A stretch of DNA of 64,000 bases from Deferribacterales bacterium Deferri_01. GTDB taxonomy: Bacteria; Chrysiogenota; Deferribacteres; Deferribacterales; Geovibrionaceae. A model generated the notes under the pieces. The model searched no databases, was not told where the DNA came from, and worked only from the letters and a program-made list of their open reading frames with translations. The translations under genes were made by a program, and so were the position numbers. The stretch covers positions 62,001 to 126,000 of the forward strand of contig LUZY01000009.1 in the NCBI GenBank assembly GCA_001603805.1, in the 5' to 3' direction. Of the stretch, positions 2,495 through 50,205 are shown in pieces (the first letter of the stretch is position 1; each line of letters opens with the position of its first letter).

Positions 2495-2522
2495 AAAAGG
2501 GGCTTTAGCGAGCCCCTTTTTT
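2495..2522. terminator. Intrinsic terminator shared by fumC and the convergent receiver gene
   Basis: Perfect 10-bp stem (AAAAGGGGCT at 2495-2504, AGCCCCTTTT at 2511-2520) with a 6-nt loop and T run. The A run on the left arm gives a U tract on the opposite strand, so it can act for both convergent genes. It abuts the stop codon of the minus-strand gene at 2521. Confidence 0.88.
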
Positions 2523-2880
2523 ATTTTGAGCAGTACTCTATCTTTTCAAACAGCATGTCTTTTATGACAGGCTTCACGATTGAATCAGTCACAGAGTGGT
2601 CGCTGTTGTCATATTCATATGCAGATATGACAATAATGGGGACACCCGGTTCAACTTTGCGTATTTCGGATATCATCTCCCATCCGTCCATAACGGGCAT
2701 CTGGAGATCTGTCAGCACCATGTCCGGTCTGTGTTCCAGAAACATGGAGAGACCCTCTTTGCCGTCTTTAGCGGGATAAATCTGACCGACACGTTTCTGC
2801 AGGACACGAGTAACCGCCATTCTGGTGACGGATTCATCCTCAACATAGAGTATGCTCAGATTTGATAAGTCCTTTGCCAT
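2521..2880 (-). CDS. Single-domain response regulator (CheY-like receiver)
   Basis: Phosphoacceptor receiver of 119 residues with no output domain. The acidic pair is D15/E16, the phosphorylated aspartate is D58 (TDLQMPVMDG), the switch serine is S86 and the conserved lysine K103 (VKP). The start ATG has GAGGTG upstream on the minus strand. It sits 90 bp downstream of the S8 peptidase gene in the same direction and may be cotranscribed with it. Its partner is unknown; several soluble PAS kinases without receivers lie elsewhere in the window. It may act by protein contact, like CheY or Spo0F. Confidence 0.92.
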   Translation of the reverse strand: MAKDLSNLSILYVEDESVTRMAVTRVLQKRVGQIYPAKDGKEGLSMFLEHRPDMVLTDLQMPVMDGWEMISEIRKVEPGVPIIVISAYEYDNSDHSVTDSIVKPVIKDMLFEKIEYCSK

Positions 2881-2970
2881 CCATCACCTCTGACGATATA
2901 TTTCACAATTGTAATATGGAAAAGCGATAATATCAACGTTATTGCAACAAATAAAAATGTATTTAAACTA

Positions 2971-5127
2971 TTATATCTCTAAAAAGGCAAAAACGGTATT
3001 GTTCTCTTTTATACTGTCTTTAAAATTTTTAAAGTTGCTGCTGCTTTTGCATATGAAGGATATGACTGCTGCATATGGAACTAAAACAGGTTCTTTGAAA
3101 AAATCCCTCTTTGATGCCGTCAGGCGCAGAAAGAGATTCTCAAATAAACACGCTGTATTTACAGATGCGTGGTAGTCCTTAAGAGGCAGCCACAGGAAGT
3201 CAGACTTTGCTTTTGGATCAGCAGGGGCATATTTCAGATGTTTATCTGTCACCAGCCCCGTCCATTTTCCGTTTTTATAGTAACCAAGAGATGCCTTGAG
3301 ATTAACACATGTATAATATCCCGCATAGGCAATACTCACCGGAGGACGGTAGGAGAGTGTTATGCGGACTGTGCCGTTAAACCTGCCGTTACAGACCATT
3401 TCAGGAGGAACCGGAACTGCTGATGTTTCAATGAATGAACCTTTTTTATATATTCCGGTGTGGATGATTGTTATTGTGTCATCATCTGTTGTCATCATTT
3501 TTTCCGGTGTTTCAGGAAGACCCCAGCCGGTATATATTCCGTCAGCTGCTTCACCTGCTGCTTTATGAATCAAAAGAGCTTTTACTGTGTCCACTGTGGC
3601 TGCTTTGTCCAGAAGTGTATAAAGTTTAGCGGCTGTTCCCGCCACAGAAGGCGAAGCATGGCTTGTTCCGGTGTCTTCTGCTATCTCGTTATATTTTCCT
3701 ATTGAGAAAACTCCCTTAGGGATATTTTTCCCGAATCTGTACTCGTGAGTTCCACCGTAATAAACAAGTTCGGGTTTAACGGATGAAAATGCGCCCCTTC
3801 CTCTTCGGGTGAACAGTGAAGGGGAGTTGAAAGGTGTGAGATTCGTATCAGTGTGGCTCACCGAGCCGACAGTCAGAGCAAAAAGACTTTCAGCAGGTAT
3901 GGTTATTATGTCTTCGGCTCTGGGTTCATCTTTATTCCAGTCTCTCAAAGGAGAATAGTTGCCGGCGGGGAGAATGAAGAGAACATCCTGTTCCCGCTGA
4001 ATGCAGTCAAGAAGATAGGCGAACAGGCTTATGTTCTCTCCTGAGGTGATATTTGTGCCCAGTGAAAGATTCCAGATTTTAATTTTGTCCCTGTATTTAG
4101 GAACAACAGTTCTTAAAATCATAGCAAGGCGGGCAAGGTCGGGCGGTGTGCCGTTTCGTCCGGGCATAACTGTCACATCAAGAAATTCTGTTCCTCCGAA
4201 GCTCTCCCCGCAGGCAAGGGCACGCCCGGTTACAAAAGTTCCGTGAGCAGGATCAATAAGTTCTTTCTCAACAAAAAGTTCTTTCCCTGATTCCCATTTG
4301 CGCAGGAAGGAATTTTCCGCAACTCCTGAATCTATTATTCCCACAGAAGGGTATGTTTCTCCGGCTTTTTTTTCCATCACGCAGTCTGAGAAAAGATCTT
4401 CATGTCGAAGGTAATGCTCTGTTATCTCGATCATCTCAGGTTCAGATATCTCACATATATAACTGTGGTTAAGAATAGTTGTCAGTTTAGGCTTGTAGTC
4501 TGAGAGATACGCTTCAATAAATATAGAATCAGCGATTTGCGGGTGAATTTTCAGAGAATGCGCACCGAGCTTGTTAAGAAAGCCTGCTACTGTTTCGGCT
4601 GTATCAGGAAACGGAAAGCATTTAAAACGGATTGTCTTGCCGGATGATTTGTCGAAAACAGCCTTCTTAACAAAATTATGAGAAATCTCAAGCTTTTCAT
4701 TAGGATAAAACCCGCCGATATTTTCAATGTGAGTAAGAGATGCTTCAAAGGATTTGCTTCTGCTGAAACGCATCACGGAACAGATCCGTTCCAGCTCACT
4801 ATCGTCCGAAACAGGGAACAGAAAGCCTGTGTTTCCGGCTGAACCTATGAGTGATATTTTTGCAGTTTCCAGAAAGCTGTAGCGCAGAGATTTCGCCAGA
4901 GAGTTTTCCCGCAGAACAAATTTTTCAACGACAGGAAGCCCCTTGTTATACTCAAAGTTTCTGTAAAACCCGAACCCTTCCTTGACCATGCGGACAATGG
5001 TTCCTCTGCTTATGGAAGGGTATCCTGATGTGCGGGGTTTTACCGGAACACCGGATACCGGACGTGCTTTTACAAAGTTTTCAGAAAACTCCATGAACAG
5101 TATGGGGTTTTTGAAGTTTTTCCCCAT
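2971..5127 (-). CDS. S8 family (subtilisin-like) serine peptidase with a long N-terminal region
   Basis: A 718-residue protein with a complete subtilase triad: D266 (GIIDSG), H295 (DPAHGTFV), oxyanion N390 (LPAGN) and S489 (GTSHASPSVAGT). There is no signal peptide, so it should act in the cytoplasm. The roughly 250-residue N-terminal region (SLAKSLRYSFLETAKI segment near residue 76) resembles the N-terminal part of S8 peptidases found in the two-gene IetAS anti-phage/plasmid system, but that system needs an AAA ATPase and none is adjacent. Here the upstream partner, 43 bp away, is an XRE-type DNA-binding gene. The C-terminal 150 residues look beta-rich and match nothing I recognise. Defence or regulator cleavage are both possible; catalytic assignment is firm, role is not. 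Confidence 0.85.
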   Translation of the reverse strand: MGKNFKNPILFMEFSENFVKARPVSGVPVKPRTSGYPSISRGTIVRMVKEGFGFYRNFEYNKGLPVVEKFVLRENSLAKSLRYSFLETAKISLIGSAGNTGFLFPVSDDSELERICSVMRFSRSKSFEASLTHIENIGGFYPNEKLEISHNFVKKAVFDKSSGKTIRFKCFPFPDTAETVAGFLNKLGAHSLKIHPQIADSIFIEAYLSDYKPKLTTILNHSYICEISEPEMIEITEHYLRHEDLFSDCVMEKKAGETYPSVGIIDSGVAENSFLRKWESGKELFVEKELIDPAHGTFVTGRALACGESFGGTEFLDVTVMPGRNGTPPDLARLAMILRTVVPKYRDKIKIWNLSLGTNITSGENISLFAYLLDCIQREQDVLFILPAGNYSPLRDWNKDEPRAEDIITIPAESLFALTVGSVSHTDTNLTPFNSPSLFTRRGRGAFSSVKPELVYYGGTHEYRFGKNIPKGVFSIGKYNEIAEDTGTSHASPSVAGTAAKLYTLLDKAATVDTVKALLIHKAAGEAADGIYTGWGLPETPEKMMTTDDDTITIIHTGIYKKGSFIETSAVPVPPEMVCNGRFNGTVRITLSYRPPVSIAYAGYYTCVNLKASLGYYKNGKWTGLVTDKHLKYAPADPKAKSDFLWLPLKDYHASVNTACLFENLFLRLTASKRDFFKEPVLVPYAAVISFICKSSSNFKNFKDSIKENNTVFAFLEI

Positions 5128-5170
5128 TATTTGGACTCCGGCAAAAATGCGGCTTCAAAGCGGCCGGATT

Positions 5171-5551
5171 TTATTCTTTTGAACCCTCAAAAACTTCCAC
5201 CAGAGGCACAATTACTTTCTCAATATTTTTAATATTTGAGTAATTCAGGCGGTTTATCCGTTCCAGAAGCACCTCCCACCCTGCGGGGATGGGTATTCCT
5301 CCTGATGATGAGAGCTGTTGGAGTATTTGCCTGTTGGCATTCAGGTAATGTTCCAGAGGAGCTTTTTCGTAAAAGAATTTAATGTCCAGCCCGAAGTGGT
5401 CAGCAAGTATTTCGAGTTTTGCGGCGTCAATATTACCGGACTTCTCATAATGCGATACGGCCTGCTGGCGTACAGAGAGGATGTCCCCGATGTCAGCCTG
5501 AGATATTTTAAAGTGTTTTCTGAGGGTTTTTAATCTTTCTGCTAAATCCAT
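5171..5551 (-). CDS. XRE-family helix-turn-helix regulator
   Basis: A 126-residue protein with an N-terminal Cro/CI-type HTH (residues 4-58; SQADIGDILSVRQQAVSHYEKSG) and a C-terminal part of about 65 residues without a recognised domain. It is the first gene of a minus-strand set with the S8 peptidase. No Shine-Dalgarno is visible before the ATG, so the message may be leaderless or weakly translated. A perfect palindrome lies 75-97 bp upstream, over the promoter of the divergent gene, and is a good candidate for its binding site. The pairing of an XRE repressor with a peptidase recalls ImmR-ImmA, where a metalloprotease removes the repressor; here the peptidase is S8. Confidence 0.88.
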   Translation of the reverse strand: MDLAERLKTLRKHFKISQADIGDILSVRQQAVSHYEKSGNIDAAKLEILADHFGLDIKFFYEKAPLEHYLNANRQILQQLSSSGGIPIPAGWEVLLERINRLNYSNIKNIEKVIVPLVEVFEGSKE

Positions 5552-5601
5552 AAAAATTAGAATACATGAAACTTGCGTAAAAGAGTAACAAAAAATTTTT
5601 G

Positions 5602-5648
5602 TTGACTGATACGCACAATTTGTGTATTAACAAATGATATTTGTTAAT
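5602..5648 (+). promoter_or_regulatory. Promoter and palindromic operator for the divergent HTH gene
   Basis: TTGACT at 5602-5607, a 17-bp spacer and TATTAA at 5625-5630 form a good sigma-70 promoter. Two dyads overlap it: CACAA-T-TTGTG at 5614-5624 between the boxes, and a perfect 10-bp inverted repeat, ATTAACAAAT (5626-5635) and ATTTGTTAAT (5639-5648) around GAT, covering the -10 box. A protein bound there would block this promoter. Confidence 0.72.
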
Positions 5649-5658
5649 TTGGAGGCGG

Positions 5659-5919
5659 ATGGTGTATAGGGAGCTGGAGTGGGAGGAGAAAAGCATTAGT
5701 AACGAACTGGCAAAAATTCCTCATGGGTTTTTATCTGTATCGCAGGCGGCTGAGGTTCTTCAGGTTAATCCGCTTACGGTTAAAAGATGGATATGGCGTG
5801 TTGAACTGCCTGCATGGAACACACGGACTGACGGCAAAGGGCATTGGAGGATAGCAAAAGAAAGTATTTCTGAATTTGTCCAGAAGCGTAATTCTATGAA
5901 TATCGATTTTTATGACTGA
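5659..5919 (+). CDS. Small excisionase/MerR-type helix-turn-helix protein
   Basis: A protein of about 86 residues with the helix-turn-helix 17 pattern (LSVSQAAEVLQVNPLTVKRWIWRVELPAW, then HWRIAKESISEFV), as in excisionases and small regulators. An upstream TTG at 5641 is inside the palindrome and cannot be the start; ATG 5659 or GTG 5662, just after GGAGG at 5651-5655, is preferred (GTG has the better spacing). It is divergent from the XRE/peptidase genes and probably controlled by the shared operator. Function could be a second regulator of the module or a relic of a mobile element. Confidence 0.78.
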   Translation: MVYRELEWEEKSISNELAKIPHGFLSVSQAAEVLQVNPLTVKRWIWRVELPAWNTRTDGKGHWRIAKESISEFVQKRNSMNIDFYD

Positions 5920-43794: not shown

Positions 43795-43882
43795 ATATTC
43801 CTATCAGTCACACGGCGTAACAAAGCCGTATCCTTTATGAGCTATATTTCTTCACCTTACAAAAAGCGTATCCGGTGGGGAG

Positions 43883-44290
43883 ATGGGGTTGAATTGGCTC
43901 AAAATCAGAGAAGAATACGAAAGCGGCAATACAGATGCGGATATCCTTGCGGATATGTTCGGCTGTAAGTCATCAACTATCAGAGAAAAAATAAGAAGTG
44001 AAAAATGGGAAAATACCCTTGAGGAAGGGCGTAAAAAACGCATCAGAATCTTTAAGGCTGTCCAGAATGTCGCCCTGCGGGGGATAGAAAAAGCTGACAG
44101 CATGCTTGATGAATGCGGCAATGTCAAAGATCTGGAAACACATTCCAAAGCAGTGAAAACCTTCCGTGACGTTGGGATGATTAAACCGGAGGAAGTGATC
44201 GGCGGAGTCAGAACCAATAACGCACTGGATGATATGTTTGACATAAGCCTTGAAGATGCCGCAAGAGTTCTGGGAGATGATGAAGACTGA
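43883..44290 (+). CDS. Small terminase subunit-like protein
   Basis: 135 residues with an N-terminal HTH-like region (IREEYESGNTDADILADMFGCKSSTIREKIRSEKW) as in phage small terminases that recognise packaging sites, followed by a helical oligomerisation region and an acidic tail. GGTGGGGAG precedes the ATG. It directly precedes a large terminase gene, which it overlaps by 14 bp, and this context supports the call. Sequence alone would be weaker. Confidence 0.75.
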   Translation: MGLNWLKIREEYESGNTDADILADMFGCKSSTIREKIRSEKWENTLEEGRKKRIRIFKAVQNVALRGIEKADSMLDECGNVKDLETHSKAVKTFRDVGMIKPEEVIGGVRTNNALDDMFDISLEDAARVLGDDED

Positions 44291-45674
44291 CCCCAGAGTG
44301 GAGGCATGCGCCAAAGCGAAGGACTCGTTAATAGCTTACTGTATGCTCAGTTACAGGGATTTTGTTCCGGGCTGGCACCACAGACTTCTTGCCCGTGAGC
44401 TTGAGCTTGTGGAAAAAGGCGAGACTGACAGGCTGATGGTGATGATGCCTCCGAGACACGGGAAAAGTGAAGTCACATCAGTGCGCTTCCCTGCGTGGTT
44501 TATGGGACGTAATCCGAAGTTTAATGTTATAGCCTGTTCATACAGTGCGGATCTTGCTGAGAGCTTCAGCCGAAGGGTCAGGGATTTAACCGCCTCAAAG
44601 CTTTTCAGGGGAGTTTTCGGAGGAAAAGGGCTTAAAAGGAATGTACGTTCCGCCGCAAGATGGGAACTGGAAGAAGGCGGCAGATACCTGGCTGCCGGCG
44701 CAGGAGGCTCAATCACAGGGCAGGGAGGGCATCTGATTATTATCGATGACCCTGTAAAAAACTCCGAGCAGGCATCATCAGCAGTTTACAGGGATAAATT
44801 GTGGGAATGGTACCGTTCGACCCTGTTTACAAGGCTTGAGAAGAACGGACGGATAATTCTGGTGCAGACAAGATGGCATGAAGATGACCTCGCCGGGAGA
44901 CTTCTTGCCGAAGCTCCGGATGAATGGAAGGTTCTCAAGCTGCCAGCTGTGGCGGAGGAGGACGGCTTTTTCCGCAGGTGCGGAGAGCCTCTTTGGGCAG
45001 AGAAATACGGCAGAGACGAACTCGGAAGGATAAAGCAGTCTGTGGGCTCAAGGGTTTGGAACGCATTGTATATGCAGGAGCCTGCGCCAGATTCAGGAAC
45101 TGTGCTGAAGCGGGATTGGTGGCGCTATTACAAAACTATGCCTTCAGATGTGGATTATTGGTTTCAGTCCTGGGATATGAGCTTTAAAGGGAGCGAAGGA
45201 GCTGACTATGTGGTGGGGCAGGTGTGGGCTGTTAAAGGGTCAGGCAGGTATCTTGCCGACATGGTGCGCGACAGGATGGACTTCTCCGCAACAGTGAGGG
45301 CAGTAAAAAATCTCACTGCACTTTGGCCGCAGGCAAAGGCGAAATATGTGGAGGACAAGGCAAACGGTTCCGCTGTTCTCTCTGCTCTGCGTAAGGAGGT
45401 TCAGGGGCTGATAGCGGTAGAACCGAAAGGTTCAAAGGTTGCAAGAGCCTATGCCGTTCAGCCAATTCTTGAGGCAGGTAATGTCTATTTGCCGGAGGAT
45501 AAGACATTTTCTGCGGAACTGGTTGAAGAGGCGGCTGCATTTCCATTCGGCAGACATGATGACATGGTGGATGCACTCACGCAGGCGTTAAACGAAAGCG
45601 GGGCAAGAGCAGTGCCTGAGGGTGCCTATTCAGGCACTTCGAGAAAGGCTGGTTATATATTCAAAGGATATTAA
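44277..45674 (+). CDS. Phage terminase large subunit (ATPase-nuclease)
   Basis: DNA-packaging motor, about 465 residues. The Walker A is MPPRHGKSE, Walker B is LIIIDDP, followed by the coupling RTRWHEDDLAGR-like segment (LVQTRWHEDDLAG). The RNase H-like nuclease has its aspartates in FQSWDMSFKG, YVEDKANG and GRHDDMVDALTQA, all present. ATG 44277 or 44280 follow GGGAG inside the small terminase gene; a further TTG at 44250 is less likely. The gene appears intact, which is surprising for a remnant. Confidence 0.93.
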   Translation: MMKTDPRVEACAKAKDSLIAYCMLSYRDFVPGWHHRLLARELELVEKGETDRLMVMMPPRHGKSEVTSVRFPAWFMGRNPKFNVIACSYSADLAESFSRRVRDLTASKLFRGVFGGKGLKRNVRSAARWELEEGGRYLAAGAGGSITGQGGHLIIIDDPVKNSEQASSAVYRDKLWEWYRSTLFTRLEKNGRIILVQTRWHEDDLAGRLLAEAPDEWKVLKLPAVAEEDGFFRRCGEPLWAEKYGRDELGRIKQSVGSRVWNALYMQEPAPDSGTVLKRDWWRYYKTMPSDVDYWFQSWDMSFKGSEGADYVVGQVWAVKGSGRYLADMVRDRMDFSATVRAVKNLTALWPQAKAKYVEDKANGSAVLSALRKEVQGLIAVEPKGSKVARAYAVQPILEAGNVYLPEDKTFSAELVEEAAAFPFGRHDDMVDALTQALNESGARAVPEGAYSGTSRKAGYIFKGY

Positions 45675-45686
45675 AAGGGGGAGTAA

Positions 45687-46802
45687 ATGAATAATCTCAC
45701 AAAAAATATTTCGGCATCATCAAGTTTTTCATCATTTTTAAATTTTATGCCTAATCCTGATGTAATTTTATCAAAAAATGGTCTGAGGCTTTCAGTTTTT
45801 GACGAAATGCTTACAGATGCACATATTTCAGCAAAGCTTGAACAGTTAAGGCACGGTGTCCTTGGAAACGAATGGGACATTGTTCCTGCTGATTCAACAA
45901 AGGAGGCTGTTAAAACTGCTGAGTTTGTAAGAAAAAGTCTCAAAATGATACCTAACTTCTTTCAGGAGCTTGAGGAGATGCTTTCTGCTGTGGAATACGG
46001 CTTTTCCGTTACAGAGATTATCTGGAAAAAGGAAGGCGCCCACTGGTTTGCAGAAAAACTGCTTAACCGCAATCCTGCACGGTTTGTATTTGACGGGGAA
46101 GGAAATCTGTTCATGGTCGACAGCGGCAGAAACATCCGGCTTGATGAACAATATAAGTTTATTGTTCACAGGCACATGCCCAGAAATGAAAATCCTTACG
46201 GCAGTCCAGTTTTATCCAAATGCTACTGGCCGTGGATGTTTAAGAAAGCAGGATTCCGATTCTGGCTCACCGTTGCTGAAAAATTCGGCGTGCCGACTGT
46301 ACTCGCCATGTTTGAATCTGAAGGCGGCGAAGAAACAAAGCGCAGGGCACAGATGCTGGCGGAATCCTTAAGCGGAATCCAGAATGATGCTGCGGTGGCT
46401 CTTGCTAATGTAGATAAAGTTCAGGTTCTGGAAAGCAGGGGCAGTTCAGATGATTTTGCAAAACTGGTTGAGGTCTGCAATTCTGAAATATCAAAGGCGG
46501 TCACAGGGGAGATACTCACAAGCGATACTGGTTCCGGAGGCTCTTACGCACTTGCGAAAGAACACTCCAAAACATTCGGGATCAAAGCCGCAAAAACAGC
46601 AGCATCACTTGCAGATTCTGTTAGTTCAACATTAGTAAGGTGGATAGCAGAGCTTAATTTCGGAAGCAGGTGCAAGCTTCCTTCATTTGTATTTAAAGAA
46701 AAAAAATATGCAGACTGGGCAACTGTTAAAGAGGCTGCACAGTCTGGAATGGATGTTGATTTTGCTGAAGCGGCAAGAAGATTCGGCATTCCTTTGAAAT
46801 AA
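45687..46802 (+). CDS. Mu gp29-like portal protein (DUF935), short at the C terminus
   Basis: 371 residues matching the N-terminal and middle parts of DUF935 portal proteins (DEMLTDAHISAKLEQLRHGVLGNEWDIVPAD; FGVPTVLAMFE; LTSDTGSGGSYALAKEH). Mu-type portals are about 500 residues, so the C-terminal quarter is missing; no continuation is seen in other frames after the stop. GGGGGAG lies before the ATG. It follows the terminase by 12 bp. No capsid, protease, tail or lysis genes follow, so this is either a decayed prophage or retained packaging genes. Confidence 0.87.
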   Translation: MNNLTKNISASSSFSSFLNFMPNPDVILSKNGLRLSVFDEMLTDAHISAKLEQLRHGVLGNEWDIVPADSTKEAVKTAEFVRKSLKMIPNFFQELEEMLSAVEYGFSVTEIIWKKEGAHWFAEKLLNRNPARFVFDGEGNLFMVDSGRNIRLDEQYKFIVHRHMPRNENPYGSPVLSKCYWPWMFKKAGFRFWLTVAEKFGVPTVLAMFESEGGEETKRRAQMLAESLSGIQNDAAVALANVDKVQVLESRGSSDDFAKLVEVCNSEISKAVTGEILTSDTGSGGSYALAKEHSKTFGIKAAKTAASLADSVSSTLVRWIAELNFGSRCKLPSFVFKEKKYADWATVKEAAQSGMDVDFAEAARRFGIPLK

Positions 46803-47262: not shown

Positions 47263-47634
47263 ATGATTGAAAGAAGACAATTCCACAGATTTGAAGATGT
47301 CCCTGTACGGGTGAGGCTCAGAAAGGAAAACTCCGGGGATTATATTGAAGCCGATATGAGAGATATAAGCATCGGTGGAATAAAAATACGCACTGATGAA
47401 GCCATAAATATCTATGAATTCTACGAAATATTAATAAATTTCAACGACTCTGCCGAAACAGCGGGAATTACGGCAAAAGCGAAGGTCTGGCGTATTGAAC
47501 CGGATACAGAAAAAAATAATGATATTTCGAGATTCTCTGCCCTTGAATTTGTAAGCTTTGAGGAAGGGGATAGAAAAATATTCACAAAATTCCTCGCCGG
47601 CTTCCTTATGGGCAGCGGTACAGAAGTTATTTAA
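47263..47634 (+). CDS. PilZ-domain protein (c-di-GMP receptor)
   Basis: 123 residues that are mostly one PilZ domain. The binding motif is present: R-R-x3-R (ERRQFHRF, residues 3-10) and D-x-S-x2-G (DISIGGIKI, near residue 36). It should bind cyclic di-GMP made by GGDEF enzymes such as the one at 32.4-34.2 kb and pass the signal by protein contact. Convergent with the next gene, overlapping by 4 bp. Confidence 0.9.
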   Translation: MIERRQFHRFEDVPVRVRLRKENSGDYIEADMRDISIGGIKIRTDEAINIYEFYEILINFNDSAETAGITAKAKVWRIEPDTEKNNDISRFSALEFVSFEEGDRKIFTKFLAGFLMGSGTEVI

Positions 47635-48152
47635 GGGGCGAAAGCCGAATAAATTATTTTATAAAGTCTTGTTTTGCCTTGTTTTTTTATTTCAACAGGC
47701 ATCTCCGTTTTCATAAACGGAATAAGAATAGAACTCTTACCCTTTTCCAAAAACCTGTACAGTTCAGGTTTTTCGTTTCTAAAAATTAAAATACAATCTC
47801 TGTGGGCGACTTCGGCATAAATATCAGTATATATCAGGAGACCTCTGCTGAAAGCGGGGGCGAATGAGTCACTGTCTATTCTTATCCAGAGTCTGCCTGA
47901 TGATATAAGGGCGTTTTCTGTCAGCCCTGTCAGGGTTTTAGGCATAACTTTAACGGCAGAATGCTCATTAACGAATGAGTCAAGGTTAACAGAAAAATAC
48001 CCTGCAATGAGAGAAAGGGTCTCAAGACTGGGGTTTCTCTGGTCATTAATGAAATTCGACATGTTGCCGGGCGATATGCTGAGTTTCCTGCAAAGCTCTG
48101 CCTGTGTCATGTTGTTTGAGGCTAACAATTGTCTTAGTCTTTTCCCTATCAT
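47631..48152 (-). CDS. CI/LexA-type repressor with partly altered S24 site
   Basis: 173 residues: N-terminal XRE HTH (3-60, MTQAELCRKLSISPGNMSNFI) and a C-terminal S24-like domain (about 85-170). The nucleophile position is kept (S96 in DSDSFAP), but the general-base lysine expected in the later strand (V-K-R type) reads L-Y132-R. Self-cleavage is therefore doubtful. Such proteins control prophages or SOS-type genes. No operator was identified in its short upstream region. Confidence 0.85.
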   Translation of the reverse strand: MIGKRLRQLLASNNMTQAELCRKLSISPGNMSNFINDQRNPSLETLSLIAGYFSVNLDSFVNEHSAVKVMPKTLTGLTENALISSGRLWIRIDSDSFAPAFSRGLLIYTDIYAEVAHRDCILIFRNEKPELYRFLEKGKSSILIPFMKTEMPVEIKKQGKTRLYKIIYSAFAP

Positions 48153-48225
48153 TTTGGAATTATGAATCAGGATAGACTTTTTGTCAATTAAGATTCTCTT
48201 TATGTGAATGATTCGGGCGCAAAAA

Positions 48226-48245
48226 AAGGAGCCTAAAGGCTCCTT
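48226..48245 (-). terminator. Terminator of the double-HTH regulator gene
   Basis: AAGGAGCC (48226-48233), TAAA, GGCTCCTT (48238-48245), with an A run at 48221-48227 that gives a U tract on the minus strand. It ends the gene at 48252-49061. Confidence 0.9.
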
Positions 48246-48251
48246 GGTTTA

Positions 48252-49061
48252 TTAATCAGGTTTTTTAGCCACCCAATGTATTTTGTAACAGCGGCTGCCC
48301 GGTTTCATGTCTTCATTTTTATTAAGACTTATGGGTTCGCCTGCTTTTGATTCGGGAGCAAGAAGCACCGAATCAGGGTATTCAAAGCAGCGCATAAGCC
48401 TTAAAGTTCCTTCGGATGCAAAAAGAACCGATTCCCTGTCAGCGGGAAAGCCGTTGATCTTTTCAACAAAAATAAGCTCATTTTCATTGATTTTTGGTGC
48501 AAATCTTCCGTCTGTAACAACGGTCCAGAAAGGAGTTTTAAGCACTTCTGTTCTTCCCGAAGCTATGTCATCAAGATGATACTGGGTTTCAGGAGATGCA
48601 GGGAAGTAGTCGACAACTTCGTTTTCCATAACTGCGGAAAGCACTTCCTGATTCTGTTCCCCGCTGCCGATCAGTTCATCAGCACCGTATTTGAGAATCT
48701 GAGCGATTGTCTCAATGGTTTCACGCTCAAACTCTCCGTGCCCCAGTTCCAGAGCAGCAAAAAAAGTGAGGTCGTAACCTGTGGAATCAGAGAGATCTTT
48801 TTTGGAGAGTCCTCTCATTTCTCTGATTTTTTTGATTTTTTCACCGATTTCCTTAGTGTTCTTGATTGAGTCGCCAAAAGCGAAATAATCAAGCTTAACT
48901 TCGAGGAAACGTGCGATTTTAGAGAGGGTTTCGAGATCAGGCTCACGGCTTCCGCTGAGATAGTTTGAGAGTCTTGATGGGGAAAGCCCCACAGCTCTGC
49001 AGACTTCAACCTGCTTGATTCCTTTTCGTTTAATTAGTCTTCTAAGTTTTTCTCCAATCAT
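48252..49061 (-). CDS. Regulator with two tandem XRE HTH domains and a protease-dead S24-like domain
   Basis: 269 residues: first HTH 3-60 (IKQVEVCRAVGLSPSRLSNYL), second HTH 72-130 (LSKKDLSDSTGYDLTFFAALELGHGE), then an S24/LexA-like fold (about 145-265). At the nucleophile position the protein has R186 (DGRFAP) and the lysine region reads TLRLMRCF, so both catalytic residues are gone. It keeps the dimerisation fold and probably acts as a stable repressor. It faces the tRNA and the third regulator across an intergenic region with repeated TTACAC words. Confidence 0.85.
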   Translation of the reverse strand: MIGEKLRRLIKRKGIKQVEVCRAVGLSPSRLSNYLSGSREPDLETLSKIARFLEVKLDYFAFGDSIKNTKEIGEKIKKIREMRGLSKKDLSDSTGYDLTFFAALELGHGEFERETIETIAQILKYGADELIGSGEQNQEVLSAVMENEVVDYFPASPETQYHLDDIASGRTEVLKTPFWTVVTDGRFAPKINENELIFVEKINGFPADRESVLFASEGTLRLMRCFEYPDSVLLAPESKAGEPISLNKNEDMKPGSRCYKIHWVAKKPD

Positions 49062-49089
49062 AGCCTAACATTACCTTATAATATTTTTC

Positions 49090-49584
49090 GTGTAAATATA
49101 CTAGTTGTTATAGGCAGCTGATCGCATTCACATGGTGTAAACCATGTTAAAGAACAGGCTGAAGATATCAGATAAACAAAAAAAAGTCTGTTGCTTGCTC
49201 TGCCGATATCAAATATATATTTACACATAGTCTTTTCTTCGTATATATAGTTGCAAACGAAAGAGAAAATGTGCTAAGTTATCAGATGTACGGGATGTAG
49301 CGCAGCTTGGTAGCGTACTGGTTTCGGGAACCAGGGGTCGGGGGTTCAAATCCCCCCATCCCGATATTCCGTTATCTTCTGCAAGTTTAATCCGAGATCG
49401 TACCCTTCTCATTAAATTAACACAAAAAAATTACCGATACTTCTTCGATAACGCTTCCTGAAATGTGAATAGATTAGTACCTTTTCTCACACCGCAAGCT
49501 ATTCTCTTGTAAAAGTTTTCATTTTGCAATAATATATCTTTTCACTATGGTGTTAATGTGTATAACTTACACCCATGAGTGTAA
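49090..49584. promoter_or_regulatory. Repeated TTACAC words, including a perfect dyad, between divergent regulators
   Basis: TTACAC or its complement occurs at 49090-49095, 49135-49140 (within the dyad CATGGT-GTAA-ACCATG), 49221-49226, 49567-49572 and 49579-49584. The last two form TTACAC-6 bp-GTGTAA, overlapping a second dyad GTGTA/TACAC at 49558-49572, about 25-50 bp before the gene at 49609. The tRNA-Pro lies between the groups. They are candidate operators for one or both XRE regulators. Confidence 0.5.
49291..49364 (+). tRNA. tRNA-Pro (anticodon CGG)
   Basis: A complete cloverleaf of 74 nt: acceptor CGGGATG (49291-49297) with CATCCCG (49357-49363), D arm with GCAGCTTGGTAGC, anticodon stem CTGGT/ACCAG around TTCGGGA (anticodon CGG, reads CCG), and T arm GGGGG-TTCAAAT-CCCCC. 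The CCA end is not encoded. The antisense frame over it yields the familiar false peptide GWGDLNPRPLVPETSTLPSCATSR and is not a gene. Confidence 0.96.
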
Positions 49585-49608
49585 AGTGTCAAGGAATAAA
49601 ACGAATAA

Positions 49609-50205
49609 ATGTGTAGAAAAAACAAAGAAATCGGAAAAAGAATTAAACAGCTGAGAAATTTTCTGGGGCTTACCCAGAGGGAATTTGCCGATCGGATATA
49701 TTCATCTTACAGATCTGTTCAGAACTGGGAATCGGGCGACAGGTTTATCAGTGAAAGCAATCTGCGTCTTTTGATGGATGAATACGGGGTTTCGGCGGAC
49801 TGGATTTACCACGGCACAGGCGAAATGTTTTCACCGTTTTTTCAGAACTCGGATTCGGATATTTTCCTGCCGGCTGCCGAGATAATAAAAACGCCATTTG
49901 TTATTAATAATCCTGATCGGTATGCGCATATTGTTGTCAGTGACGAAATGGATCCTGTTATCTGCGAAGGCGATATTGCTTTGTGGATAAAAGAGGAAAG
50001 AATAAGGCACGGCAGCTTTGTTTTCCTTATCGGCACGGACGGAAGACCATTTATCCGTAAGTACCTTTTTAATGAAGGTCAGGGATTTCTGGTGCCTGAA
50101 AACAAAGACTACAAAGTGCTGAAAATTAATGACCCCGATGTGAGACACGTAGGCACGGTTACGGAAGTATTTACTAAAAAGTCCATGATGCCGCAGAAAA
50201 TATAG
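49609..50205 (+). CDS. CI-like repressor with the S24 serine replaced by glutamate
   Basis: 198 residues: XRE HTH (5-65, LTQREFADRIYSSYRSVQNWESGDR) and a C-terminal S24-like domain (about 90-195). The nucleophile position reads S-D-E113-M-D-P instead of G-D-S-M-x-P, while a lysine (K151 in PFIRKYLF) remains, so it cannot self-cleave by the usual route. The glutamate could mimic a cleaved or stable state. TTACAC/GTGTAA dyads lie 25-50 bp upstream. Start ATG 49609 has only a distant AAGGA. Confidence 0.84.
   Translation: MCRKNKEIGKRIKQLRNFLGLTQREFADRIYSSYRSVQNWESGDRFISESNLRLLMDEYGVSADWIYHGTGEMFSPFFQNSDSDIFLPAAEIIKTPFVINNPDRYAHIVVSDEMDPVICEGDIALWIKEERIRHGSFVFLIGTDGRPFIRKYLFNEGQGFLVPENKDYKVLKINDPDVRHVGTVTEVFTKKSMMPQKI

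Follow-up and report, generated by a model that had tools for sequence, protein, structure and literature searches.

Among the closest described counterparts of the locus studied here are an integrative element and gene transfer agents (GTAs). In ICEBs1, the 127-aa repressor ImmR shares an operon with ImmA, xis is divergent from that operon, six ImmR sites lie over both promoters, and ImmA cuts ImmR at F95-M96 (PMC8960796). In Caulobacter, the 132-aa XRE protein CdxB represses the defence-derived lypABC genes, which are needed for GTA release, and also the GTA activator genes (PMC13236601; see also PMC10688885). For the VSH-1 GTA of Brachyspira, a divided genome and demonstrated DNA packaging are described in work cited in PMC11841831. 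Here we analyze a stretch of 64,000 nucleotides from Deferribacterales bacterium Deferri_01 (GenBank assembly GCA_001603805.1, contig LUZY01000009.1, positions 62,001 to 126,000; hereafter the window), in which genes for a small XRE regulator and an S8 peptidase form an operon and an HTH_17 gene diverges from them. We conclude that this XRE-S8-HTH_17 module is probably the switch of a family-wide, phage-derived element made up of three loci, most likely a GTA.

The XRE-S8-HTH_17 Module Is Conserved in Geovibrionaceae

A sequence-only reading of this stretch had described open reading frames for an XRE regulator, an S8 peptidase 43 bp away, a receiver domain and a divergent small HTH protein; all four, and the 43 bp gap, were confirmed, with a Pfam domain on each product (Table 1). 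Across genomes, the spacing between the XRE and S8 genes ranges from 28 to 43 bp. The DNA-binding domain of ICEBs1 ImmR (7t8i) was among the profile matches of the XRE protein, whose structure model was too poor for use [predicted local distance difference test (pLDDT) score 47]. The divergent HTH_17 protein scored above the cut-off of the excisionase-class model TIGR01764 (33.3 bits; cut-off 28.8), and its gene most likely starts at the ATG at 5659, which is preceded by GGAGG, and not at 5641.

We then searched 60 relatives by whole genome, 12 belonging to Geovibrionaceae and 48 from outside the family. The family genomes include Denitrovibrio and Seleniivibrio, the latter placed by NCBI in Geovibrionaceae, Deferribacterota. 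An S8 gene with an adjoining XRE gene was present in 12/12 family genomes and, generic weak matches aside, in 0/48 outside, and the divergent HTH_17 gene was distributed in the same way (12/12 and 0/48), ruling out a chance association of the trio. The co-occurrence check proposed with the sequence-only reading thus found the pair conserved throughout the family. The XRE gene beside S8 is a single copy in each of the 12 genomes. The receiver gene, which lies 3′ of S8 on the minus strand across a 90 bp gap, adjoins the XRE-S8 pair in only 4 of the 12, all in two genera (g1 and g2), and it is for this reason placed outside the conserved core module.

Fumarase and aconitase flank the trio in genera g1 and g2, where the receiver gene follows it; FtsY and a TPR gene flank it in genera g3 and g4, where a phage capsid gene adjoins it. 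The module is a core, single-copy, vertically inherited trait of Geovibrionaceae, and its setting is not a defence island.

An XRE Regulator Has Replaced the ATPase Partner of an IetS-Class Protease

The likeness of the peptidase to the S8 partner of IetAS, noted earlier from the sequence, held up: the PADLOC IetS models cover nearly the entire protein (residues 52-682; E 7e-108), although the NCBI IetS model (NF042956) gave 268 bits against a cut-off of 900 bits, so that the equivalog threshold was not reached. The catalytic triad, D266, H295, and S489, is intact as had been reported, and shows no substitution in 11 family members or across an alignment of 34 IetS-type proteins; N390 is likely the oxyanion residue. 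Inspection by eye revealed no N-terminal signal peptide. An AlphaFold2 model of the peptidase (pLDDT 86.4; predicted template-modelling score 0.90) was closest, among solved folds, to subtilases that carry a C-terminal beta domain (for example, Tk-SP and KP-43). In one metagenome-assembled genome (G007; L031 7970-9406 region), an in-frame TGA immediately precedes the catalytic T-S within the GTS motif, reflecting either a broken gene or an assembly error; the same genome has no recognisable XRE site at its head operon (see below).

The gene beside this protease differs between the family and the loci sampled outside it. A scan of 84,980 species genomes for S8 homologues yielded 74 loci outside the family, a sample that is pattern-selected and not exhaustive. 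An IetA AAA protein is encoded directly upstream of S8 in 69 of the 74 loci; the remaining five comprise four loci at contig edges and one broken gene, and an XRE gene was next to S8 in none of the 74. Similarly, among ten viral contigs with an S8 homologue, AAA is directly upstream in nine and none was recognised in the tenth, and none of the ten has XRE at S8. In the S8 tree, the XRE-partnered proteins fall on one side of a branch with a support of 99 in the Shimodaira-Hasegawa-like approximate likelihood-ratio test. Within the family, IetA is absent beside S8 at all 12 XRE-S8 loci, in agreement with the earlier remark that the ATPase is missing; elsewhere in this genome no IetA was recognised, the best match being a 655-aa, FtsH-sized AAA protein. 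Since 69 of 74 outside loci have IetA and none has XRE, while XRE adjoins S8 in 12/12 family genomes, the IetA AAA protein has been replaced by a small XRE protein in one clade, and the arrangement has since been kept. A recent loss of IetA in this genome, which the earlier reading had named as a refuting outcome, was rejected; S8 does adjoin AAA outside the family, but XRE holds that place in all 12 family members.

Canonical IetAS does occur inside the family, in the Denitrovibrio-like genome G005 (L037 7007-10063; AAA of 389 aa and S8 of 624 aa), where it is adjoined by IS21-like transposase genes; this genome carries both the ordinary IetAS and the XRE-S8 module. We also observed that nearly all IetA proteins upstream of S8 in loci L044-L068 end in a helix-turn-helix-like segment, and a helix-turn-helix is thus carried by both partner types, XRE and IetA, of IetS-class proteases. 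A homology of the XRE protein with this C-terminal segment was considered and rejected, as the hhalign match (70% over 34 columns) is expected from generic helix-turn-helix likeness.

These results bear on whether the module might be a new IetAS-like anti-phage defence module, in which XRE, in place of the ATPase, regulates or inhibits the protease. The clear IetS homology, the true IetAS in one relative (L037), and the helix-turn-helix shared by both partner types would fit this view. We nevertheless consider it improbable, since typical defence systems are patchy, whereas the trio is single-copy and core in every family member and lacks a defence-island setting, and since the operators described below tie it to particle genes. 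The defence role proposed in the sequence-only reading was, on these same grounds and given vertical inheritance, not borne out.

Predicted XRE Operators Connect the Module with a Head/Tail Operon

Palindromes of the ACA-N9-TGT class are present in the XRE/HTH_17 intergenic region of nearly all family genomes, with three to four in most (for this genome, see Table 1). Exact AACAAAN5TTTGTT occurs three times in this genome, twice in this intergenic region; the third copy (C9:23955) lies inside a coding gene and was set aside as a regulatory site. The analogy with ImmR/ImmA drawn in the earlier reading became stronger as a result, because the divergent gene is of excisionase class and predicted operators lie in the intergenic region, as they do at ICEBs1 immR/xis.

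We next scanned 682 kb (threshold 9.5 bits) with a weight matrix derived from the sites of the module itself, in each case excluding the tested genome. In striking contrast to the background, 15 sites at or above the threshold were found in 1,815 bp upstream of a phage-type head/tail operon, vs. 30 sites in the 681,720 bp elsewhere. Sites were present upstream of the head operon in 9/12 genomes, and most of them were kept with matrices that left out a whole genus. The sites at the head operon are often paired, 32-33 bp apart, and in two genomes compared in detail, a -35-like motif precedes the second site and the -10 box follows it. The whole genome of G009 matches the consensus exactly at two places, the module and the head operon. 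A genome-wide XRE regulon was rejected, as the loose palindrome was not enriched over control in most genomes; in the palindrome scans, nothing stood out apart from the module and the head operon. On the strength of these predicted operators, we regard it as probable that the module regulates the phage-derived element.

The same operators weigh on a toxin-antitoxin-like reading, in which the XRE protein would bind and inhibit a toxic protease as well as repress it. A gene for a small HTH protein preceding that of a potentially toxic enzyme, with a layout implying autoregulation and a spacing of 28-43 bp, is what such a pair would look like, but the operators at the head operon would be left unexplained, the module is not mobile, and no known S8 toxin-antitoxin family was matched. 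We consider this reading improbable.

The Particle Genes Form a Divided, Mu-Derived Set Under Purifying Selection

The head/tail operon begins with genes for a head maturation protease (phrog_976), a head decoration protein (phrog_49), and a major head protein (phrog_29), followed by about ten more genes, mostly unannotated. In this genome, it lies at G000:C9:135809-145429, starting 9.8 kb past the end of the window. The distance between module and head operon is ∼4 kb in two genera and ∼75 kb in the other two, where the operator nevertheless recurs at the head operon; in this genome, the distance is ∼70 kb. The capsid gene (PF03864) is present in one copy in each of the 12 family genomes and in 1/48 genomes outside, where it lies within a Mu-like prophage of G049 and is the closest outside capsid relative. 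Packaging genes occupy the third locus, 38 kb from the module within the window (43883-46802), and the order terS-terL-Mu portal is identical in 12/12 family genomes; the Mu portal family PF06074 was found in 0/14 control genomes. A terminase of phrog_2 or PF05876 type, considered as a candidate, is absent from this genome, the real terminase being the phrog_38-type protein in the window.

All genes of the element are under strong purifying selection, and the ratio of nonsynonymous to synonymous substitution rates (dN/dS) is about 0.03-0.1 for the module genes, although saturation of dS makes these ratios rough. Capsid proteins are 94-96% identical within a genus, similar to aconitase. In the flanks read around the loci, neither an integrase or transposase nor replication genes were recognised, no dedicated integrase search of the whole genome having been made. 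Judged by its genes, the particle gene set has the profile of a domesticated, divided, GTA-like element, in which the particles would be expected to carry host DNA.

A leftover lysogeny switch from a decayed prophage, retained by chance and now without a role, would share the cI/cro- or immR/xis-like layout and the phage neighbours seen in two genera. The invariant triad and the low dN/dS of the module genes argue against this, as does the persistence of the module in four genera, two of which have it separated from the particle genes, and we judge such a remnant to be very improbable.

Three more XRE-type regulators are encoded just downstream of the packaging operon (window 47631-50205), two of them with S24-like C-termini by Pfam, one of these below cut-off, and a tRNA-Pro gene (49291-49364) lies amid them. 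They may be further control genes of phage origin.

The Packaging and Head Operons Share a Late-Promoter Motif

The packaging operon inside the window is tied to the head operon outside by a late-promoter motif common to both. In the host genus, this motif, ACAYGNNNTAACAA located 19 nt before TATATT, was found at the packaging and head promoters only, within 166 kb of this genome. In genera g3 and g4, the corresponding motif is TTAWACATAT with a downstream -10-like box, one copy before each operon in eight genomes; it was exact in 15 of the 16 promoters, had a single mismatch in the other, and gave one stray match in about 320 kb. TTAWACATAT (L033 16110, L189 3610, and equivalents) is almost unique to two promoters per genome, making it a handy marker for further element genes in Denitrovibrio and Seleniivibrio.

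Both the recognition helix of HTH_17 and the late motif differ between g1 and g3/g4, while G003 does not fit this pattern. It is only suggestive, from this covariation, that HTH_17 may bind the late motif (ACACGNNNTAACAA or TTAWACATAT).

Table 1. Features of the module and of the packaging locus, in window coordinates.
Feature	Position	Strand	Evidence and remarks
Stand-alone CheY-like receiver domain	2521..2880	-	Response_reg E 5e-20; downstream of S8
IetS-class S8 (subtilisin) peptidase, 718 aa	2971..5127	-	Peptidase_S8 E 2e-25; N-terminal region and C-terminal beta domain
XRE-family repressor (predicted), 126 aa	5171..5551	-	HTH_3 E 3e-8 and conserved PxGW...C-terminal region
Predicted operator palindrome 1, AACAAAAAATTTTTGTT, ACA-N9-TGT class	5587..5603		22.8 bits (weight matrix built without this genome)
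Operator-like palindrome, TACGCACAATTTGTGTA	5610..5626		13.8 bits
Predicted operator palindrome 2, AACAAATGATATTTGTT	5629..5645		18.8 bits
Divergent HTH_17/excisionase-class DNA-binding protein, 86 aa	5659..5919	+	HTH_17 E 7e-12; open reading frame opens at 5641
Packaging operon promoter (predicted), ACACGGCGTAACAA, 19 nt, TATATT	43810..43848	+	Motif and spacing recur at G000:C9:135748, the promoter of the head operon
Small terminase-like protein, 135 aa	43883..44290	+	Weak match to the PHROGs terminase small subunit (E 0.002); precedes terL in 12/12 genomes
Terminase large subunit (terL)	44250..45674	+	phrog_38 E 4e-129; PF03237/PF17289; 12/12; start TTG 44250 or ATG about 44256
Mu-type portal protein, 371 aa	45687..46802	+	PF06074 E 2e-89; 12/12 family genomes

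A Model for the Switch

We propose that the XRE protein would act as a repressor of its own operon and of the divergent HTH_17 gene, and in trans also of the head/tail operon, through binding to ACA-N9-TGT palindromes that overlap the promoters. Active S8 peptidase would then cleave or otherwise remove XRE, as ImmA does ImmR, freeing the HTH_17 gene and the head operon, and HTH_17 would be a candidate activator acting on the late motif before the packaging and head operons.

The peptidase is most likely either an antirepressor, which we favour, or a release effector. That it acts as an ImmA-like antirepressor is a tentative proposal by analogy. As a release effector, it would be the lysis or cell-death protein of the element, a co-opted defence protease like Caulobacter LypABC that is held off by XRE until particles are made. 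Three observations lean toward such a role: CdxB represses a defence-derived, peptidase-containing operon for GTA release together with GTA activator genes (PMC13236601), the S8 peptidase belongs to an anti-phage effector family, and the annotated cluster proteins include no recognised holin or endolysin. However, several cluster proteins are unannotated and could include the lysis genes, and co-transcription with a conserved, dedicated repressor is the classical layout of an antirepressor; we regard a release effector as the less likely of the two.

Several points weigh against the interpretation of the module as a GTA switch that works by proteolysis. Nothing in the sequence indicates that S8 cleaves XRE, and the assignment of the palindromes to XRE rather than to HTH_17 is suggested by their symmetry. 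The XRE site at the head operon is weak or absent in three genomes (G003, G005, and G007), no XRE operator was found at the packaging promoter, and, as the genomes are related, the motif counts are not independent. In addition, the small terminase-like protein, whose PHROG match is weak, seemingly keeps, on visual inspection, an N-terminal helix-turn-helix; in known GTAs, by contrast, small terminases reportedly have no DNA-binding domain (PMC11841831).

Even so, a control switch of a GTA remains our preferred explanation of the module. A fuller and more speculative scenario, which we put forward only as a possibility, is that an IetS defence protease lost its ATPase in the ancestor of Geovibrionaceae, gained an ImmR-like repressor, and now serves as the proteolytic on-switch of a new Mu-derived GTA of three loci; this would be the first GTA in Deferribacterota and the first repressor-inactivating switch of a phage-derived element to use an S8 protease. 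The candidate GTA was previously unnoticed, none being reported for this phylum in the literature searched, and it comes already divided into three loci that appear to be co-regulated, with its putative control module identified.

Comparison With Known Systems

Mu-like phages share with the element the Mu portal (PF06074), a Mu-I-type head protease and the capsid, but here no transposase or integrase was seen beside the loci, and the genes are split and vertically inherited. The element resembles VSH-1 in that particle genes are conserved within one clade and are distributed among separate chromosomal loci. The two differ in phage ancestry and host phylum, and DNA packaging is demonstrated for VSH-1 but is a prediction here.

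With IetAS, the module shares an S8 protease that is homologous along nearly its whole length and conserved in its catalytic residues, and it differs in having XRE in place of the adjoining IetA ATPase. The likeness to ImmR-ImmA/Xis of ICEBs1 in Bacillus subtilis lies in the arrangement, with an equally sized XRE protein that shares an operon with a protease, a divergent HTH gene of excisionase class, and several predicted operators between them. Unlike in ICEBs1, the protease is a serine peptidase of family S8 and not a COG2856 metallopeptidase, no integrase was recognised here in the flanks read and there are no conjugation genes, and the presumed target is a particle gene set.

Finally, the Caulobacter system of CdxB, LypABC, and GafYZ likewise combines a small XRE protein, a defence-derived peptidase, and GTA-type genes. 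Its particle is unrelated to the Mu-type head found here and its protease is of another family; in Geovibrionaceae, moreover, repressor and protease share one operon and predicted repressor sites lie directly at the head operon. If our interpretation is correct, the module would be, after Caulobacter LypABC, a second and independent example of GTA control in which a small XRE protein stands beside a defence-type protease, and two such cases would point to a general path for the reuse of immune parts in horizontal gene transfer.

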